DNA of 43,953 bases from Alistipes sp. (lineage in GTDB: Bacteria; Bacteroidota; Bacteroidia; Bacteroidales; Rikenellaceae). Location: the NCBI GenBank assembly GCA_017505725.1, contig JAFVOR010000016.1, forward strand, positions 1-43,953, read 5' to 3'. The notes below the pieces were generated by a model. The model saw only the letters and a list, made by a program, of their open reading frames with translations. It had not been told where the DNA came from and did no database searches. A program made the position numbers and the translations under genes. Shown in pieces: positions 142 through 39,325 of this stretch (within the stretch, counting starts at the first letter, position 1; each line of letters begins with the position of its first letter).

Positions 142-177
142 AATTTTTAATTTTTAATTCTTAATTTTTAATTTTAT
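142..177. repeat. AT-rich (T)TTAATT repeat block
   Basis: Repeated units of the form TTTTTAATT and TTCTTAATT. The same family, in the opposite orientation, flanks the KilA-N island (36373-36404 and 37571-37648). Here it abuts the point where rmlA homology ends. Confidence 0.65.
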
Positions 178-33828: not shown

Positions 33829-34998
33829 TTATTTACTACTGATAAACCGCTTTGTAAGCCAACGGCGCACCGGCTCATCGTAGAGCTTTAAGCAGGCGTA
33901 TGCCAACGCAATATTTATAGCAAATACCATTATCACTACCGGCCAAGTCTCGCCAAGTGTGTAGAGTTTGTTCTCTATCAACCAGGCGTAGAAGAGGTAC
34001 ATCACCGGATAGTGCACAATGTAGAGCGGATAGGATATGTCGCCCAAGAATTTGCAGAGTGCCGACGAAACCTTACCTGTTGTTTCGCCCGAAGCGGTAA
34101 ACCATACGATTGCAGGGAATACTAACAAAATGCAGGCGAACTCATACAAACCATTGATGCTCACCTCGCCATACTTTGCAAATGCAGGCACGGAGAATAG
34201 AGCAAAGAGTATCGCCCACGCAATCCAGAATATACCCTTAATCTTTACGGGCTTGAAGTTGCGAGCCAAGAGCATACCCAACGAGAACGGGAACATCATT
34301 CTGAGCAGACCGCCGAAGAAGTTTACTGTGTCGAGTGTCCAGCCGATACCTATCATATCGTAGCCCGATACATCTGTGGTAACAAACCAGCACCACGCTG
34401 CACCCAATATAGTTGTCAAGATAGCCAAAGCACGATTGCCCAAGCGACGAATAAAGAGTGCGTAGAGCAGGTTGCCGATATACTCAAAGAAGAGCGACCA
34501 GCTTGGTCCGTTCAGTGAGTACATTTCGCCATTGCCACGCAAGTCGTATTGTGCGCCGGGATATGCCGGAATGAAGAACATCGTAAGCACTAACGCCACC
34601 AACGACCACGACATCGGTGTAGGCGTGCCGTCCCACTTTACGCCACCCTGCAAGCAGAAGGTCGTGAAGCCAATTATCGCACCCATAATCAACATTGGGT
34701 GCAGACGGATAAGTCGTCGCTTGAAGAACTCTTTGAGCGTTAGAGGGTTGTGTGCGCGTTGCCAACGGTCGTCGTAAGCATAACTGATAACAAACCCCGA
34801 AAGCATAAAGAACAAATCCACTCCCAAATGGCCGTGATTGAAGGTTGTGATTGCAGTTCCCTCGGCAAAGGCAAATCCCTCGAAAAAGTGGTACCAAACA
34901 ACCATCAAAGCCGCTGCACCGCGCAACGCATCGAGCAGAGCGTAGTGGGGCTTGCTATCGGCAAACATAGCCGATGGGGTAGTGGTCAGGTTAGCCAT
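33829..34998 (-). CDS. Acyltransferase-3 family (OafA-like) membrane acyltransferase
   Basis: About 389 aa from the ATG at 34998 (MANLTTTPSAMF); a start four residues earlier at 35010 is possible. Family features: LDALRGAAALMVVWYHFFEG (catalytic His of the R-x(10)-H pattern), LGVDLFFMLSGFVISYAYDD, and RRLIRLHPMLI, followed by about ten membrane helices. It transfers acetyl or other acyl groups to extracytoplasmic carbohydrates (LPS, capsule or peptidoglycan). It is directly downstream of hisS (gap of about 7-20 bases), so it is probably read through from hisS. No polysaccharide cluster adjoins it. Confidence 0.88.
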   Translation of the reverse strand: MANLTTTPSAMFADSKPHYALLDALRGAAALMVVWYHFFEGFAFAEGTAITTFNHGHLGVDLFFMLSGFVISYAYDDRWQRAHNPLTLKEFFKRRLIRLHPMLIMGAIIGFTTFCLQGGVKWDGTPTPMSWSLVALVLTMFFIPAYPGAQYDLRGNGEMYSLNGPSWSLFFEYIGNLLYALFIRRLGNRALAILTTILGAAWCWFVTTDVSGYDMIGIGWTLDTVNFFGGLLRMMFPFSLGMLLARNFKPVKIKGIFWIAWAILFALFSVPAFAKYGEVSINGLYEFACILLVFPAIVWFTASGETTGKVSSALCKFLGDISYPLYIVHYPVMYLFYAWLIENKLYTLGETWPVVIMVFAINIALAYACLKLYDEPVRRWLTKRFISSK

Positions 34999-35017
34999 AT
35001 TGTCTGCCAAATAAATG

Positions 35018-36361
35018 TTATTTGATAAGGTCTGCTATCTCGTCAAATGCAACAAGGTTCTGCTCACCGCTGGTCATATTCTTGACGGTTGCCTTGCCCT
35101 CGGCTAATTCGTTGCTGCCGATAATTACAACATACGGAATCTGACGACGGTTGGCGTACTCCATCTGCTTCTTCATCTTCGCAGAATCGGGATATACCTC
35201 GGTCGAGATACCTGCATCACGCAACGCCTTTGCACAACGCAACGATGCCAAGCCCTCTGCCTCGCCAAGGTTGATGAAGAGCACCTTGGTCAAACAAGTT
35301 ACATCGGCAGGGAACAAGTCCAAACCTACCATAACATCGTAGATACGGTCTGCGCCGAACGAGATACCTACGCCCGAGACATCAGGCATACCGAAGATGC
35401 CCGTAAGGTTGTCGTAGCGACCACCACCGCAGATCGAGCCAATAGCGAAATCCTTCGCCTTGACCTCGAAGATGGCACCTGTGTAGTAGTTCAAACCACG
35501 AGCCAACGAGAGGTCCAACTCAACCTCCAATGCGATACCCAAAGCCTCGACCGATGCGAATACGGTGCGCAACTCCTCTACGCCCTTCAAACCGGTCTCG
35601 CTCTCGGCAAGGATAGTTTCGAGCTGTGCGAGTTTCTCGGCAGTTGAACCGCTCAAGGTGAGGATAGGCTCCAACTTTGCCACAGCCTCTGCCTCGATAC
35701 CACGCTCTGCCAACTCCGCCTTCACGTTGTCCAAACCAATCTTCTCGAGTTTGTCGATAGCCACGGTGATGTCAATCATCTTGTCGGCGTGGCCCATAAC
35801 CTCGGCAATACTGTAGAGCACCTTGCGGTTGTTGAGCTTCAACACCACATTGATACCGAGCTTTGAGAATACACGCTCCACAATCGAAATCAACTCCACC
35901 TCGTTCATCAACGAGCGTGAGCCGATAATATCGACATCGCACTGATAGAACTCACGATAGCGGCCCTTCTGTGGGCGGTCAGCACGCCATACGGGCTGAA
36001 TCTGATAACGCTTGAATGGGAAGGTAATCTCGTTCTGGTGCTGCACGACATAGCGGGCAAACGGAACGGTCAAGTCATATCTTAAACCCTTCTCGCAGAT
36101 GCGGTGAGCCTGACGCACCTCCTCGTCGTTGAGGTTTGCTCCAAAATCACCCGAGTTGAGTATCTTGAAGAGGAGTTTGTCGCCCTCCTCGCCATATTTA
36201 CCCATAAGGGTAGAGAGGTTCTCCATCGAAGGGGTCTCGATTGCTGCAAATCCGTATGCGCGGAAGACCTCGGCGATAGTATCGAATATATAGGTGCGAC
36301 GCGCTGTCTCAATCGGCGAAAAGTCGCGTGTTCCCTTTGGAATGGATGGTTTCTGTGCCAT
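35018..36361 (-). CDS. hisS: Histidine-tRNA ligase
   Basis: 447 aa, normal. Class II synthetase motif 1 region near [11 protein letters not shown]. Motif 2 is [20 protein letters not shown] followed by [13 protein letters not shown]. The HisRS-specific [18 protein letters not shown] and [13 protein letters not shown] (motif 3 region) and the anticodon-binding domain ([10 protein letters not shown] onwards) are present. It charges tRNA-His. The ATG follows a repeat block (36373-36404). It is first in a run with the acyltransferase. Confidence 0.97.
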
Positions 36362-36372
36362 ATACTTTCAGT

Positions 36373-36404
36373 AATTAAGAATTAAAAATTAAGAATTAAG
36401 AATT
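36373..36404. repeat. AT-rich AATTAAGAATT repeat, left border of the KilA-N island
   Basis: Direct units of AATTAAGAATT and TTAAAAATTAAG. It lies between the hisS start and the stop codon of the next gene (36403-36405). The same units recur at 37571-37594. Confidence 0.65.
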
Positions 36405-36738
36405 ACTTGAAAAATGAGTTTACAACTTTATCCACAAAAGATTCGTTTTGACCTTGAACTGTATGAAGTTTTCTATCTTCTGCTTGTTGAGCATCATATT
36501 TAAGTTTGCTCCAATCTCTGCTATATTCGTTCCATATATCTACATCTAATTGACTTGGATGGTCAAAGCCATTTCCCTCTGCTTTTGGATCTAAATGTAT
36601 GAAATTTCCAAACTTCATTCTAACAGAAGCAGGTGTTTTGCCTATGATTTTTGCAACCTTTTCAATTTGTGCAGATGTTGCATTATTACGATATGCTTCC
36701 AATGCTATGATTGTGTCGTCTCTATCCCACTTTGCCAT
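36403..36738 (-). CDS. Small protein resembling the N-terminal domain of HNH/restriction endonucleases
   Basis: 111 aa from the inner ATG (MAKWDRDDTIIALEAYR); four more residues are possible from 36750. WDRDDTIIALEAYRN, then KVAKIIGKTPASVRMKFGNF and HLDPKAEGNGFDHPSQLD, followed by DVDIWNEYSRDW. This fits the domain found at the N-terminus of many HNH endonucleases and restriction enzymes, which usually reads WTR(D/E)E...ALxLY...IGRTPSSVxxKxxNFxxxDP. No HNH or nuclease motif follows, so only this domain, presumably DNA-binding or a linker, is present. Amino-acid and base composition are AT-rich. It lies just behind the KilA-N gene. The function is unknown. Confidence 0.6.
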   Translation of the reverse strand: MAKWDRDDTIIALEAYRNNATSAQIEKVAKIIGKTPASVRMKFGNFIHLDPKAEGNGFDHPSQLDVDIWNEYSRDWSKLKYDAQQAEDRKLHTVQGQNESFVDKVVNSFFK

Positions 36739-36751
36739 TATATCTGTCAAT

Positions 36752-37561
36752 TTATTTAAGTAATACTCTTTTGTTTGACTCTTCTAATATCCTCATTTGT
36801 TGAATAGCTATTTGATTGAGTTTTATCAGCCTTTCTCGTTGAGGCATATTTTCGTTAATTAGAACAGCGTTCAAATTCTCCATATTTGATAGGCATATAA
36901 GTTCGTTGATGGTTGCATAATCACGGATATTGCCTTTCAAATCGGGGTTTGCATCACGCCACTCTTTTGCGGTTAGACCAAATAGTGCAACATTAAGAAC
37001 ATCGGCTTCATTTGCATATATATAAGATATTTGCTTGGGCGTTAGTTCTTGTGGAATAAGATGATTCTTTATTGCATCAGTGTGAATATGATAGTTTATC
37101 TTTGATAACTCTCTTTTAGCACTCCAACCAAGCAGCTTTTGCTTCTCTTCTTGTAATTTTTGGTACTCTTTAACTAATAACAACTGAAATCGAGGACTAA
37201 TCCACATTCCAAAGTGATAGGCAATATCCTTATGAGCGTATGTTCCGCCATACCTACCAGCCTTTGCTACAATGCCAATAGCGTTGGTCCTTTCAATCCA
37301 AGTCTTAACAGATAGCACAAAGTTGTTGCTGCCCGCAGCGTTTCTAATTGTACCGAATTCGGTATAATTAAAATTGGGATTGTACAGCAACTCCCACTCT
37401 CCGATATATTCGATAGTACTTTTAAGACTCAACCATCGGAATATGATGTGCTCTTGCATCTGGCTGTGAGCCATATCTGTAAGAGATATATAATCTTCTG
37501 CGCCTTGCGGAAGAATGGTAATCTCGGCATTGTCGATATGGATAGTCTGTTTTTGTGCCAT
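36752..37561 (-). CDS. KilA-N domain protein
   Basis: 269 aa from MAQKQTIHID (37561); five more residues are possible from 37576. The first ~130 residues match KilA-N: DYISLTDMAHSQ, then EYIGEWELLYNPNFNYTEF, WIERTNAIGIVAKAGRYGGT and YAHKDIAYHFGMWISPRFQL. KilA-N is a DNA-binding fold common in phage, prophage and mobile genes. The C-terminal ~130 residues are helical with ELTPKQISYIYANEADVLNV and are not recognised by eye. It is more AT-rich than its neighbours (hand counts: 20 G+C in 37081-37140 against 33 in 601-660). It probably forms an operon with the small gene at 36403-36738. Confidence 0.82.
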   Translation of the reverse strand: MAQKQTIHIDNAEITILPQGAEDYISLTDMAHSQMQEHIIFRWLSLKSTIEYIGEWELLYNPNFNYTEFGTIRNAAGSNNFVLSVKTWIERTNAIGIVAKAGRYGGTYAHKDIAYHFGMWISPRFQLLLVKEYQKLQEEKQKLLGWSAKRELSKINYHIHTDAIKNHLIPQELTPKQISYIYANEADVLNVALFGLTAKEWRDANPDLKGNIRDYATINELICLSNMENLNAVLINENMPQRERLIKLNQIAIQQMRILEESNKRVLLK

Positions 37562-37570
37562 AAAATATAA

Positions 37571-37648
37571 ATTCAAAATTAAGAATTAAGAATTTGCTGA
37601 TGTAGCAAAAAAATAATTTTTAATTTTTAATTATGAATTTTTAATTTA
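37571..37648. repeat. AT-rich repeat, right border of the KilA-N island
   Basis: AATTAAGAATTAAGAATTT (about 37577-37595) and, after GCTGATGTAGCAAAA, an oppositely oriented AATTTTTAATTTTTAATT block (about 37614-37648). The block reaches into the ettA stop codon (37646-37648). Confidence 0.65.
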
Positions 37649-39325
37649 TTGGTTTTCAACCAATTTGCGGTACTTAACTCGGTGTGGGGTAGTGTCCATA
37701 CCCTGTGCCTTCTTCCACTCCTCGTACTCCGAGTAGGAGCCCTCGTAGAAGATGACATTGCCATCGCCCTCGAACGAGAGAATGTGAGTTGCGATACGGT
37801 CCAGGAACCAACGGTCGTGCGAGATGACAACGGCGCATCCTGCGAAGTGCTCCAAACCCTCCTCCAATGCACGCAAGGTGTTCACATCGATATCGTTGGT
37901 AGGCTCATCGAGCAAGATTACATTACCCTCCTCCTTGAGTGCGAGAGCGAGGTGCAAGCGGTTACGCTCACCACCCGAGAGTACACCGCATTTCTTCTCC
38001 TGGTCTGCGCCTGTGAAGTTGAAGCGTGCAACATAGGCACGAGCAGGCACCTGACGATTGCCCAACTGCACGAACTCGCTATTCTGCGAGATTACCTCGT
38101 ATACGGTCTTCTCCGGGTCGATAGATTTGTGCTGCTGATCTACATAGGCGAGCTTTACAGTCTGTCCTACGGTGAATGTTCCGCTTGTAGGCTCCTCCAA
38201 CCCCATAATCATACGGAACAAAGTGGTCTTACCTGTTCCGTTAGGACCAATCACACCCACGATACCTGCAGGTGGCAACTTGAAGTCCAAGCCCTCGTAG
38301 AGTACGCGGTCGCCAAAGGCCTTCGAAACGCCATTCGCTTCGATAACTACATCGCCCAAACGAGGTCCGTTAGGGATGTAAATCTCGAGCTTCTCCTCCT
38401 TCTGCTTTGTATCCTCGTTGAGCATCTTGTCGTAGGCCGAAAGACGAGCCTTGCTCTTGGCGCGACGGCCCGATGGATTCATATTAACCCACTCCAACTC
38501 GCGCTCGAGGGTCTTGCGACGTTTCGACTCCTGCTTCTCCTCCATAGCCATACGCTTGGTCTTCTGGTCGAGCCAACCCGAATAGTTGCCCTTCCAAGGA
38601 ATACCCTCGCCACGGTCGAGTTCCAAGATCCAACCCGCTACATTGTCCAGGAAGTAACGGTCGTGGGTTACGGCGATTACCGTACCCTTATACTGCTGCA
38701 AGTGCTGCTCCAACCAGTCGATAGACTCGGCATCGAGGTGGTTGGTAGGCTCATCGAGCAACAATACATCAGGCTGCTGCAACAAGAGACGGCACAATGC
38801 CACACGACGACGCTCACCACCCGAGAGTACGGCCACCTTCTGGTCTGAAGCAGGGCATCGGAGGGCATCCATTGCACGCTCCAATACGCTATCAAGCTCC
38901 CAACCATTCACGTGGTCGATCTTCTCGTACAACTCGCCCTGACGCTCGATCAAGCGATTCATCTCGTCGTCGTCCATTGGCTCGCACAACTTCATATTGA
39001 TATCCTCGTACTCCTTCAAGAGTGCTGCGGTCTCGGCACAACCCTCCTGGACAATCTCCTTTACGGTCTTGTTGTCGTCGAGCTGTGGCTCCTGCTCGAG
39101 GTAACCTACGGTGTAACCCGGCGAGAATACAACCTCGCCCTGGAAGTTCTTGTCGATACCTGCAATAATCTTCATCAGGGTAGATTTACCCGAACCATTA
39201 AGACCGATGATACCGATCTTAGCACCATAGAAGAATGAGAGGTAGATGTTATTTAAGACCTTCTTCTGATTCTGAAAGGTCTTGCTGACACCCACCATCG
39301 AAAAGATAATTTTCTCGTCTGCCAT
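37646..39325 (-). CDS. ettA: Energy-dependent translational throttle protein EttA (ABC-F)
   Basis: 559 aa, the usual ABC-F length. Two nucleotide-binding domains: Walker A GLNGSGKST and GPNGTGKTT, signature LSGGERRRV and LSGGERNRL, Walker B LLLDEPTNHLD and ILLDEPTNDID. The arm inserted in the first domain and the P-site tRNA interaction linker (KQESKRRKTLERELEWVNMN) are typical of EttA, as is the C-terminal GSYSEYEEWKK. It binds the ribosomal E site and adjusts initiation to ATP/ADP levels. It is divergent from the GH97 gene. A -7-type element lies 46 bases upstream. Confidence 0.95.
   Translation of the reverse strand: MADEKIIFSMVGVSKTFQNQKKVLNNIYLSFFYGAKIGIIGLNGSGKSTLMKIIAGIDKNFQGEVVFSPGYTVGYLEQEPQLDDNKTVKEIVQEGCAETAALLKEYEDINMKLCEPMDDDEMNRLIERQGELYEKIDHVNGWELDSVLERAMDALRCPASDQKVAVLSGGERRRVALCRLLLQQPDVLLLDEPTNHLDAESIDWLEQHLQQYKGTVIAVTHDRYFLDNVAGWILELDRGEGIPWKGNYSGWLDQKTKRMAMEEKQESKRRKTLERELEWVNMNPSGRRAKSKARLSAYDKMLNEDTKQKEEKLEIYIPNGPRLGDVVIEANGVSKAFGDRVLYEGLDFKLPPAGIVGVIGPNGTGKTTLFRMIMGLEEPTSGTFTVGQTVKLAYVDQQHKSIDPEKTVYEVISQNSEFVQLGNRQVPARAYVARFNFTGADQEKKCGVLSGGERNRLHLALALKEEGNVILLDEPTNDIDVNTLRALEEGLEHFAGCAVVISHDRWFLDRIATHILSFEGDGNVIFYEGSYSEYEEWKKAQGMDTTPHRVKYRKLVENQ

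Follow-up and report, generated by a model that had tools for sequence, protein, structure and literature searches.

A small gene island in the genome of an Alistipes species appears to have arisen when a single candidate phage-defence gene of the KilA-N type entered the leader of hisS, the gene for histidyl-tRNA synthetase, with duplication of that leader and of the hisS start. The island occupies positions 36366-37645 of contig JAFVOR010000016.1 (assembly GCA_017505725.1); the whole analysed stretch of 43,953 nucleotides is called the window here. It holds two genes and sits exactly between hisS and an ABC-F gene, everything being on the minus strand. The name ettA for the ABC-F gene comes from an earlier sequence-only reading of the window and is assumed here. 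A probability of roughly two in three is given to this explanation, which leans on the following features.

37549..37561, minus strand: copy of the hisS start, ATGGCACAAAAAC, now the start of the KilA-N gene; one of two exact occurrences of ATGGCACARAAAC in the 2.36-Mb draft genome, within 14-bp direct repeat D4 (93%)
36349..36361, minus strand: hisS start, ATGGCACAGAAAC, an exact ATGGCACARAAAC; hisS assigned by Pfam
36752..37561, minus strand: KilA-N gene, 269 amino acids from ATG (MAQKQT...), PADLOC PDC-S22 (Pfam KilA-N, 2.3e-20; PDC-S22, 2.8e-126; start from comparison)
36403..36738, minus strand: truncated HNH-endonuclease gene, N-terminal domain only (PADLOC HNH PDLC04132, 1.6e-14, profile positions 28-128 of 286)
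35018..36361, minus strand: hisS, histidyl-tRNA synthetase, flanking gene (Pfam tRNA-synt_His, 5.4e-38)
37646..39325, minus strand: ettA-type ABC-F ATPase, flanking gene (Pfam ABC_tran, 1.7e-52, and ABC_tran_Xtn)

In the proposed course of events, a PDC-S22 KilA-N gene, probably together with a neighbouring HNH-endonuclease gene, would have entered the hisS leader. This probably took place in a common ancestor of the own genome and of a relative from the Rikenellaceae (locus L031), and it would have duplicated the hisS leader together with the first four hisS codons. The KilA-N gene would now be translated from the copy of the hisS start (MAQK...) while hisS retains its own, and the HNH gene would have been cut back to its N-terminal half, at insertion or later. 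The insertion itself, the matching starts, the truncation of the HNH gene, the family assignment and direct repeats at numerous further loci of KilA-N and RhuM are evident from the sequences; the break-and-join steps, the joint arrival of the HNH gene and a role of KilA-N in phage defence are the conjectural parts of this scheme.

Empty sites and the distribution of the insert

The base composition of the segment sets it apart. At 34.4% G+C it lies far below the two genes beside it, hisS and ettA (52.1% and 52.4%), and the lowest-G+C stretch of 1,280 bp in the window (50-bp steps) begins at 36351. These values and the exact placement agree with the sequence-only reading, which had described an AT-rich segment of two genes at this junction. 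The KilA-N family is itself mostly AT-rich, with gene G+C below that of its own flanks in 109 of 137 loci.

Forty relatives from the same genus were searched, and the 29 best-scoring loci were fetched with the end of ettA. hisS follows ettA directly in 26 of these 29, with spacers of up to about 200 bp, and KilA-N was seen by tblastn in none of the 29 fetched ettA stretches, of which that of L132 ends 67 bp past ettA. Because hisS directly follows ettA in these 26 loci and KilA-N occurs in none, the island is read from this comparison as a horizontally acquired insertion. The empty junctions that the earlier reading had proposed to look for are therefore present, and its idea of a small acquired cargo without transposase or integrase gains support from them and from the sporadic occurrence of the family. 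Intact KilA-N was found in none of 36 genomes of the genus; one of them (G007) carries a C-terminal remnant only, and its ettA lies on a different contig. In the order as a whole, a match was present in 135 of 393 genomes, the own genome included. Neither gene of the insert matched a transposase, and the search for terminal inverted repeats yielded, as pairs spanning the insert, AT heptads only, the other inverted pairs lying within genes.

Two of the relatives carry other genes at the same junction. In L136, ettA is followed by a TPR gene with a DUF4062 match below the cut-off, and the start of the sequence beyond ettA in L132 resembles it by eye; in L147, a gene without Pfam match stands between ettA and hisS. 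Such varied cargo is what would be expected if homologous recombination in the conserved flanks had brought a different whole gene into each species, with direct repeats merely incidental. This is the mode of the minimal mobile element, as defined in the accessible part of PMC3082526 (citing Saunders and Snyder 2002 and Snyder et al. 2007). The likeness consists in different whole-gene cargo between two conserved genes in relatives (L136, L147); the present case differs in that species rather than strains are compared and in that the insert has a target duplication. Recombination is considered a rather unlikely explanation of the island. It is favoured by the alternative cargo and by the similar divergence of KilA-N, hisS and ettA between the window and L031, yet it leaves the copied hisS start unexplained, and it could spread an insertion but not create one.

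The copied hisS start

The KilA-N gene opens with codons that match the start of hisS, a feature that the sequence-only reading does not mention. The whole draft genome holds only two exact copies of ATGGCACARAAAC, one at each of these gene starts, and the repeat search linked the same two starts by a 14-bp repeat. The closest counterpart is L031, from a metagenome-assembled genome (MAG) of the Rikenellaceae. Its KilA-N protein is 95% identical in amino acids to that of the window and its gene stands at the same site, without the HNH gene. There, 75 bp ending in ATGGCACAGAAAC precede both KilA-N and hisS, at 87% identity. DNA identity between the window and L031 is 0.909 for KilA-N, 0.879 for hisS and 0.871 for ettA; since these values are similar, the insertion is probably older than the split of the two lineages. 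The type of leader repeat is alike on both sides of the insert within each genome, AATTAAG in the window and AGCTAAT in L031. Comparison of window positions 36362-36405 and 37562-37645 with L031 suggests exchange of sequence between the two leader copies, as if they had changed together since the split.

The next closest KilA-N genes (L032-L038) start with ATGAAG or ATGAAA and not with ATGGCACA. AGAAAC is common to three of these seven (L032-L034) and to the hisS start, and it is possible that this hexamer marks the joint of the insertion. In another genome, a KilA-N gene of 77% identity lies 313 bp from a divergent hisS (L194), a third case of KilA-N beside a hisS start.

Several observations weigh against insertion with duplication as read from the starts. 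A more distant KilA-N protein (L076) begins with MAQKKK, so that a MAQ start can arise in other ways. The duplication in the window is short, consisting of a 13-bp start and heptads that are common in the genome, and the window alone is no proof. The weight of the duplication case is carried by L031, and the window and L031 are not independent.

Matches to AATTAAGAATT stand at both ends of the segment; the window holds 14 at up to one mismatch, against 0.75 expected, and four of them are located at 142-173. The repeats form tandem arrays with a 7-bp unit of the AATTAAG/AATTAAA type, which adjoin the insert as follows.

36373..36405, no strand: AATTAAG/AATTAAA heptad array in the hisS leader, overlapping the stop of the truncated HNH gene; the array type recurs elsewhere in the genome
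37577..37594, no strand: AATTAAG heptads, exact AATTAAGAATT copies, upstream of the KilA-N start; 25-bp direct repeat with the hisS leader, 96%
37608..37646, no strand: AATTAAA/AATTATG heptads beside the ettA stop, one mismatch to AATTAAGAATT

The sequence-only reading took these repeats for the borders of the island, that is, for the recognition ends of a small mobile element. Repeats on both sides are real and exceed chance in the window, which speaks for such ends; on the right, the exact copies stand just upstream of the KilA-N start, and those at the ettA stop have one mismatch. An 18-bp array pattern gave 222 matches at up to two mismatches in the 2.36-Mb draft genome, overlapping ones counted separately, and a reversed control pattern, itself a shifted form of the array, gave 161. 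Among 27 located hisS starts of the genus (29 loci), six have AATT arrays with a 7-bp period within 120 bp upstream, and in all six (L139, L140, L142, L143, L144 and L151) hisS stands directly after ettA without an insert. Arrays so common in the genome, and present at empty hisS sites as well, do not delimit a mobile unit. In L031, moreover, this gene occupies the corresponding site but is accompanied by other repeats, and further KilA-N loci have unrelated ones. It had been named beforehand as telling against such borders if the repeats were absent from relatives with the same genes; for AATTAAG this is what L031 presents, with a longer repeat, the copied hisS leader, in their place. The arrays were rejected as element ends, and only a very slim chance is left to that explanation.

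AATTAAG arrays are frequent in the own genome (window 142-173; loci L003-L030 of G000), where several stand beside tandem runs like CCCTTACTGGCCCTTACTAGC. They also occur near several contig ends (C8, C14, C30, C31, C77 and C88).

Direct repeats at other KilA-N and RhuM loci

The sample of KilA-N loci comprised the best 80 of at least 549 loci in genome contigs, 60 regions chosen from the better results of the order-wide search, and the window. After removal of three duplicates, 138 distinct loci remained, and eight were dropped for short flanks, leaving 130 tested. As a second sporadic family, RhuM (Virulence_RhuM; PDC-S05) was represented by 60 regions chosen from the better search results, of which 59 were tested. 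Neither sample is random. Direct repeats were accepted at E below 1e-5 within 600 bp, and the controls were mechanical open reading frames (ORFs) of 180-400 amino acids in the same loci, possibly including non-genes.

Of the 130 KilA-N loci, 29 have flanking direct repeats (the window and L031 count among them), against 10 of 338 control ORFs (Fisher's test, 3e-10). A first, smaller test that this one replaced had scored 11 of 77 loci and 6 of 491 ORFs. Repeats near both the start and the stop of the gene were found in 18 of 130 KilA-N loci against 5 of 412 controls (p 2.9e-8); the window does not count towards the 18, since the HNH relic intervenes there. These locus-specific repeats at unrelated sites are a further point that recombination in conserved flanks leaves unexplained.

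In the 14 KilA-N loci that were read, the repeated sequence is not the same between loci, and in several cases it is the end of an adjacent gene. The 3' ends of genes are repeated in L095 (201 bp of an Exo_endo_phos gene), in L211 (hsdS, encoding HsdS) and in L091 (44 bp of a gene that resembles those of outer membrane proteins, below the Pfam cut-off). In L241 the repeat of 107 bp at 100% comprises the leader and first codons of a Bro-N gene, onto which the KilA-N start is fused, and in L208 it is the start of an ASCH-like gene, just below the cut-off. Other repeats are intergenic or of unclear origin, as in L237 and L215. Repeats were also seen outside the records labelled as MAGs, in Barnesiella sp. 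WM24 (L081), where they lie in a tandem KilA-N array, and in a genome of one contig (L237); to judge from these records, the repeats are more than a MAG artefact.

Duplicated gene ends are also left by integrases at att sites, and this likeness is one of the points in favour of regarding the island as what is left of a prophage or integrase-driven element. KilA-N is moreover a common phage domain, the protein of the window matches PHROG 2657 at 9.7e-55, and tyrosine-integrase-like genes were recognized by eye near KilA-N in three of the 138 loci (L077, L206 and L216). The distribution of the family points the other way. Search patterns that gave at least 549 loci in genome contigs gave two loci, one of them partial, in a collection of 2.9 million viral contigs, which differs in size from that of the genome contigs; KilA-N matched in 17 of 50,697 phage records and 24 of 72,556 plasmids. 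The repeats that were read vary between loci, no neighbour family is present in more than 14 of 138 loci (the next two commonest in 10 and 8), and the neighbours in the window are hisS and ettA rather than phage genes. A phage or integrase origin is accordingly considered very improbable. Of the suggestions in the sequence-only reading (defence, anti-phage regulation or a phage remnant), defence agrees with the listing of the family as candidate defence.

The test of RhuM loci gave direct repeats in 11 of 59, no different from KilA-N (p 0.70), and close repeats in 6 of 59 (p 8e-4 against the ORFs). Because the RhuM rate equals that of KilA-N, the repeat mode is not specific to KilA-N; as judged from these two samples, it belongs to single accessory genes of such kind. 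A mobility peculiar to KilA-N is weakened by this control. Further points tell against insertion with duplication as the general route. No direct repeat was found in 101 of the 130 KilA-N loci in the same test, which would be expected if old repeats decay and equally if many insertions took another route. Some of the 29 positive loci have repeats that are distant or lie in repeat-rich surroundings and may be incidental (e.g., L051, L106 and L239). Searches for empty sites of L241, L240, L090 and L208 returned nothing readable as syntenic, the loci from three of these searches not being read in detail; the fourth gave an ASCH-like gene without KilA-N beside it, but with a different upstream gene.

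Two other regularities were sought in the KilA-N loci. No orientation bias towards the next gene was seen, the downstream gene being on the same strand in 87 of 127 cases against 314 of 485 control pairs. No conserved partner gene emerged from 750 ORFs in the 138 loci.

A further KilA-N piece was present in the fetched flank of 4 of the 138 loci. L081 has three copies or pieces in tandem, and in L208 an N-terminal KilA-N piece, followed by a fragment of the neighbouring gene, stands about 380 bp upstream of KilA-N. The tandem pieces look as if later copies had landed at the same site. In the genome G282, three different KilA-N genes (L189, L198 and L214) each start no more than about 15 bp past a gene for a leucine-rich surface protein; the 3' ends of these surface-protein genes are very similar, and the genes beyond differ and are of housekeeping type, as named by eye. 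Genes resembling type I modification subunits, by eye, stand near KilA-N in 6 of 138 loci (L075, L076, L204, L205, L220 and L247), and RhuM-type genes in 10 (L054 and nine others).

The cargo genes and known modes of insertion

The KilA-N identity given in the sequence-only reading holds (Pfam, E 2.3e-20). The match to the PDC-S22 profile covers the whole length, from 1 to 265 of the protein and from 1 to 270 of 281 in the profile, and PDC-S22 was matched by all 44 aligned KilA-N relatives. We take PDC to mean phage defence candidate, a label that presumably rests on genes embedded in known defence systems. The listing makes the KilA-N gene a candidate for phage defence, the role being that of a database label, and defence would act through the DNA-binding domain. 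The gene resembles the PADLOC entry in its whole-length match and differs from it in its solitary chromosomal setting beside hisS, not inside a defence system. In the accessible part of PMC12813430, PDC-S22 is named and co-occurrence with other systems is reported.

The relatives are strongly conserved, with a mean column identity of 68%, and many invariant polar residues fall in the C-terminal half (N156, H160, D187, R202, N211, R213, D214 and E228). The invariant polar residues in 145-269 resemble an active or binding site more than they do a linker. The C-terminal half gave no Pfam match at E up to 10, and a sequence search returned no known structure for the family (best E 0.33).

The second gene of the island had been described as a lone domain of HNH or restriction-enzyme type. 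The HNH kinship stands (PDLC04132, 1.6e-14; no Pfam match), and the gene is a truncated one rather than a lone domain. Matches were found in 22 of 295 genomes of the order, the own included; the open frames comprise 244-332 amino acids in the 21 others and 126 in the window gene, which ends before the HNH catalytic domain. In L034, one of the closest loci (KilA-N 88%), an HNH gene stands directly behind KilA-N, broken into two frames, and its open piece carries the HNH_2 domain (2.7e-11). The stop of the window gene falls inside the repeat array adjoining hisS. Because the 21 relatives are of 244-332 amino acids, L034 bears the HNH half and the stop lies within the array, the gene is best read as a truncated relic of an HNH-endonuclease gene. 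It corresponds to the N-terminal domain of PDLC04132, the catalytic half of which is missing. The PDLC04132 family is distantly like phosphorothioate-dependent restriction enzymes (NF045808), the L034 piece scoring far below the cut-off. The loci do not show the two genes as a conserved pair: among the 138, tblastn found the second gene in the window and L034 only, and about 25 codons of such a gene were read by eye in L033.

To our knowledge, it is poorly understood how single defence genes spread between distant bacteria without a transposase. The accessible parts of PMC3031569, PMC1643837 and PMC4978471 describe how restriction-modification genes insert with duplication of long, variable stretches of their target, and the first two cite Nobusato et al. 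2000, on Helicobacter pylori, as the first report. The likeness to these cases lies in a cargo without transposase and in direct target repeats that are long, variable and particular to the locus: in the window 25 bp at 96% together with the 13-bp start copy, and in L031 the 75 bp. The repeat is target sequence that is single without the insert, one hisS start following ettA in 26 of the 29 fetched loci. The differences are a single candidate-defence cargo, KilA-N with a truncated HNH gene, without methylase or intact nuclease, in the Bacteroidales, and the use by this cargo of a copy of the start codon of its target. By analogy, the insert would work like a published long-target-duplication case, yet it is not a restriction-modification insertion. 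Furuta et al. 2010 is also cited for insertion with a long target duplication. The literature search, which covered few subscription papers and in which RhuM was not searched for, found the pattern not reported for KilA-N.

The pattern would extend a mode described for restriction-modification genes to other cargo. Candidate-defence genes bounded by copied ends of neighbouring genes offer a simple signature that can be searched for in any genome, and it becomes testable whether the gene product promotes the insertion of its own gene or only profits from host repair. The window suggests that a newcomer may settle harmlessly beside an essential gene by using a copy of that gene's start. As a generalization that we regard as a long shot, solitary candidate-defence genes (KilA-N of PDC-S22, RhuM of PDC-S05) might be "naked" mobile genes, without a transposase or ends of their own, which land where host genes start or stop, duplicate a long stretch there, leave the neighbours intact and sometimes are handed the host start codon. 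In its boldest form, KilA-N itself would make or guide the break at the next target, like a free-standing homing gene.

On the other side of hisS, an acyltransferase-like gene, recognized by eye, occupies window positions 33829-35010 between hisS and a dedA-like gene. In L031 the same dedA-like gene stands directly after hisS with no acyltransferase-like gene between them, and the gene in the window may be another insertion.

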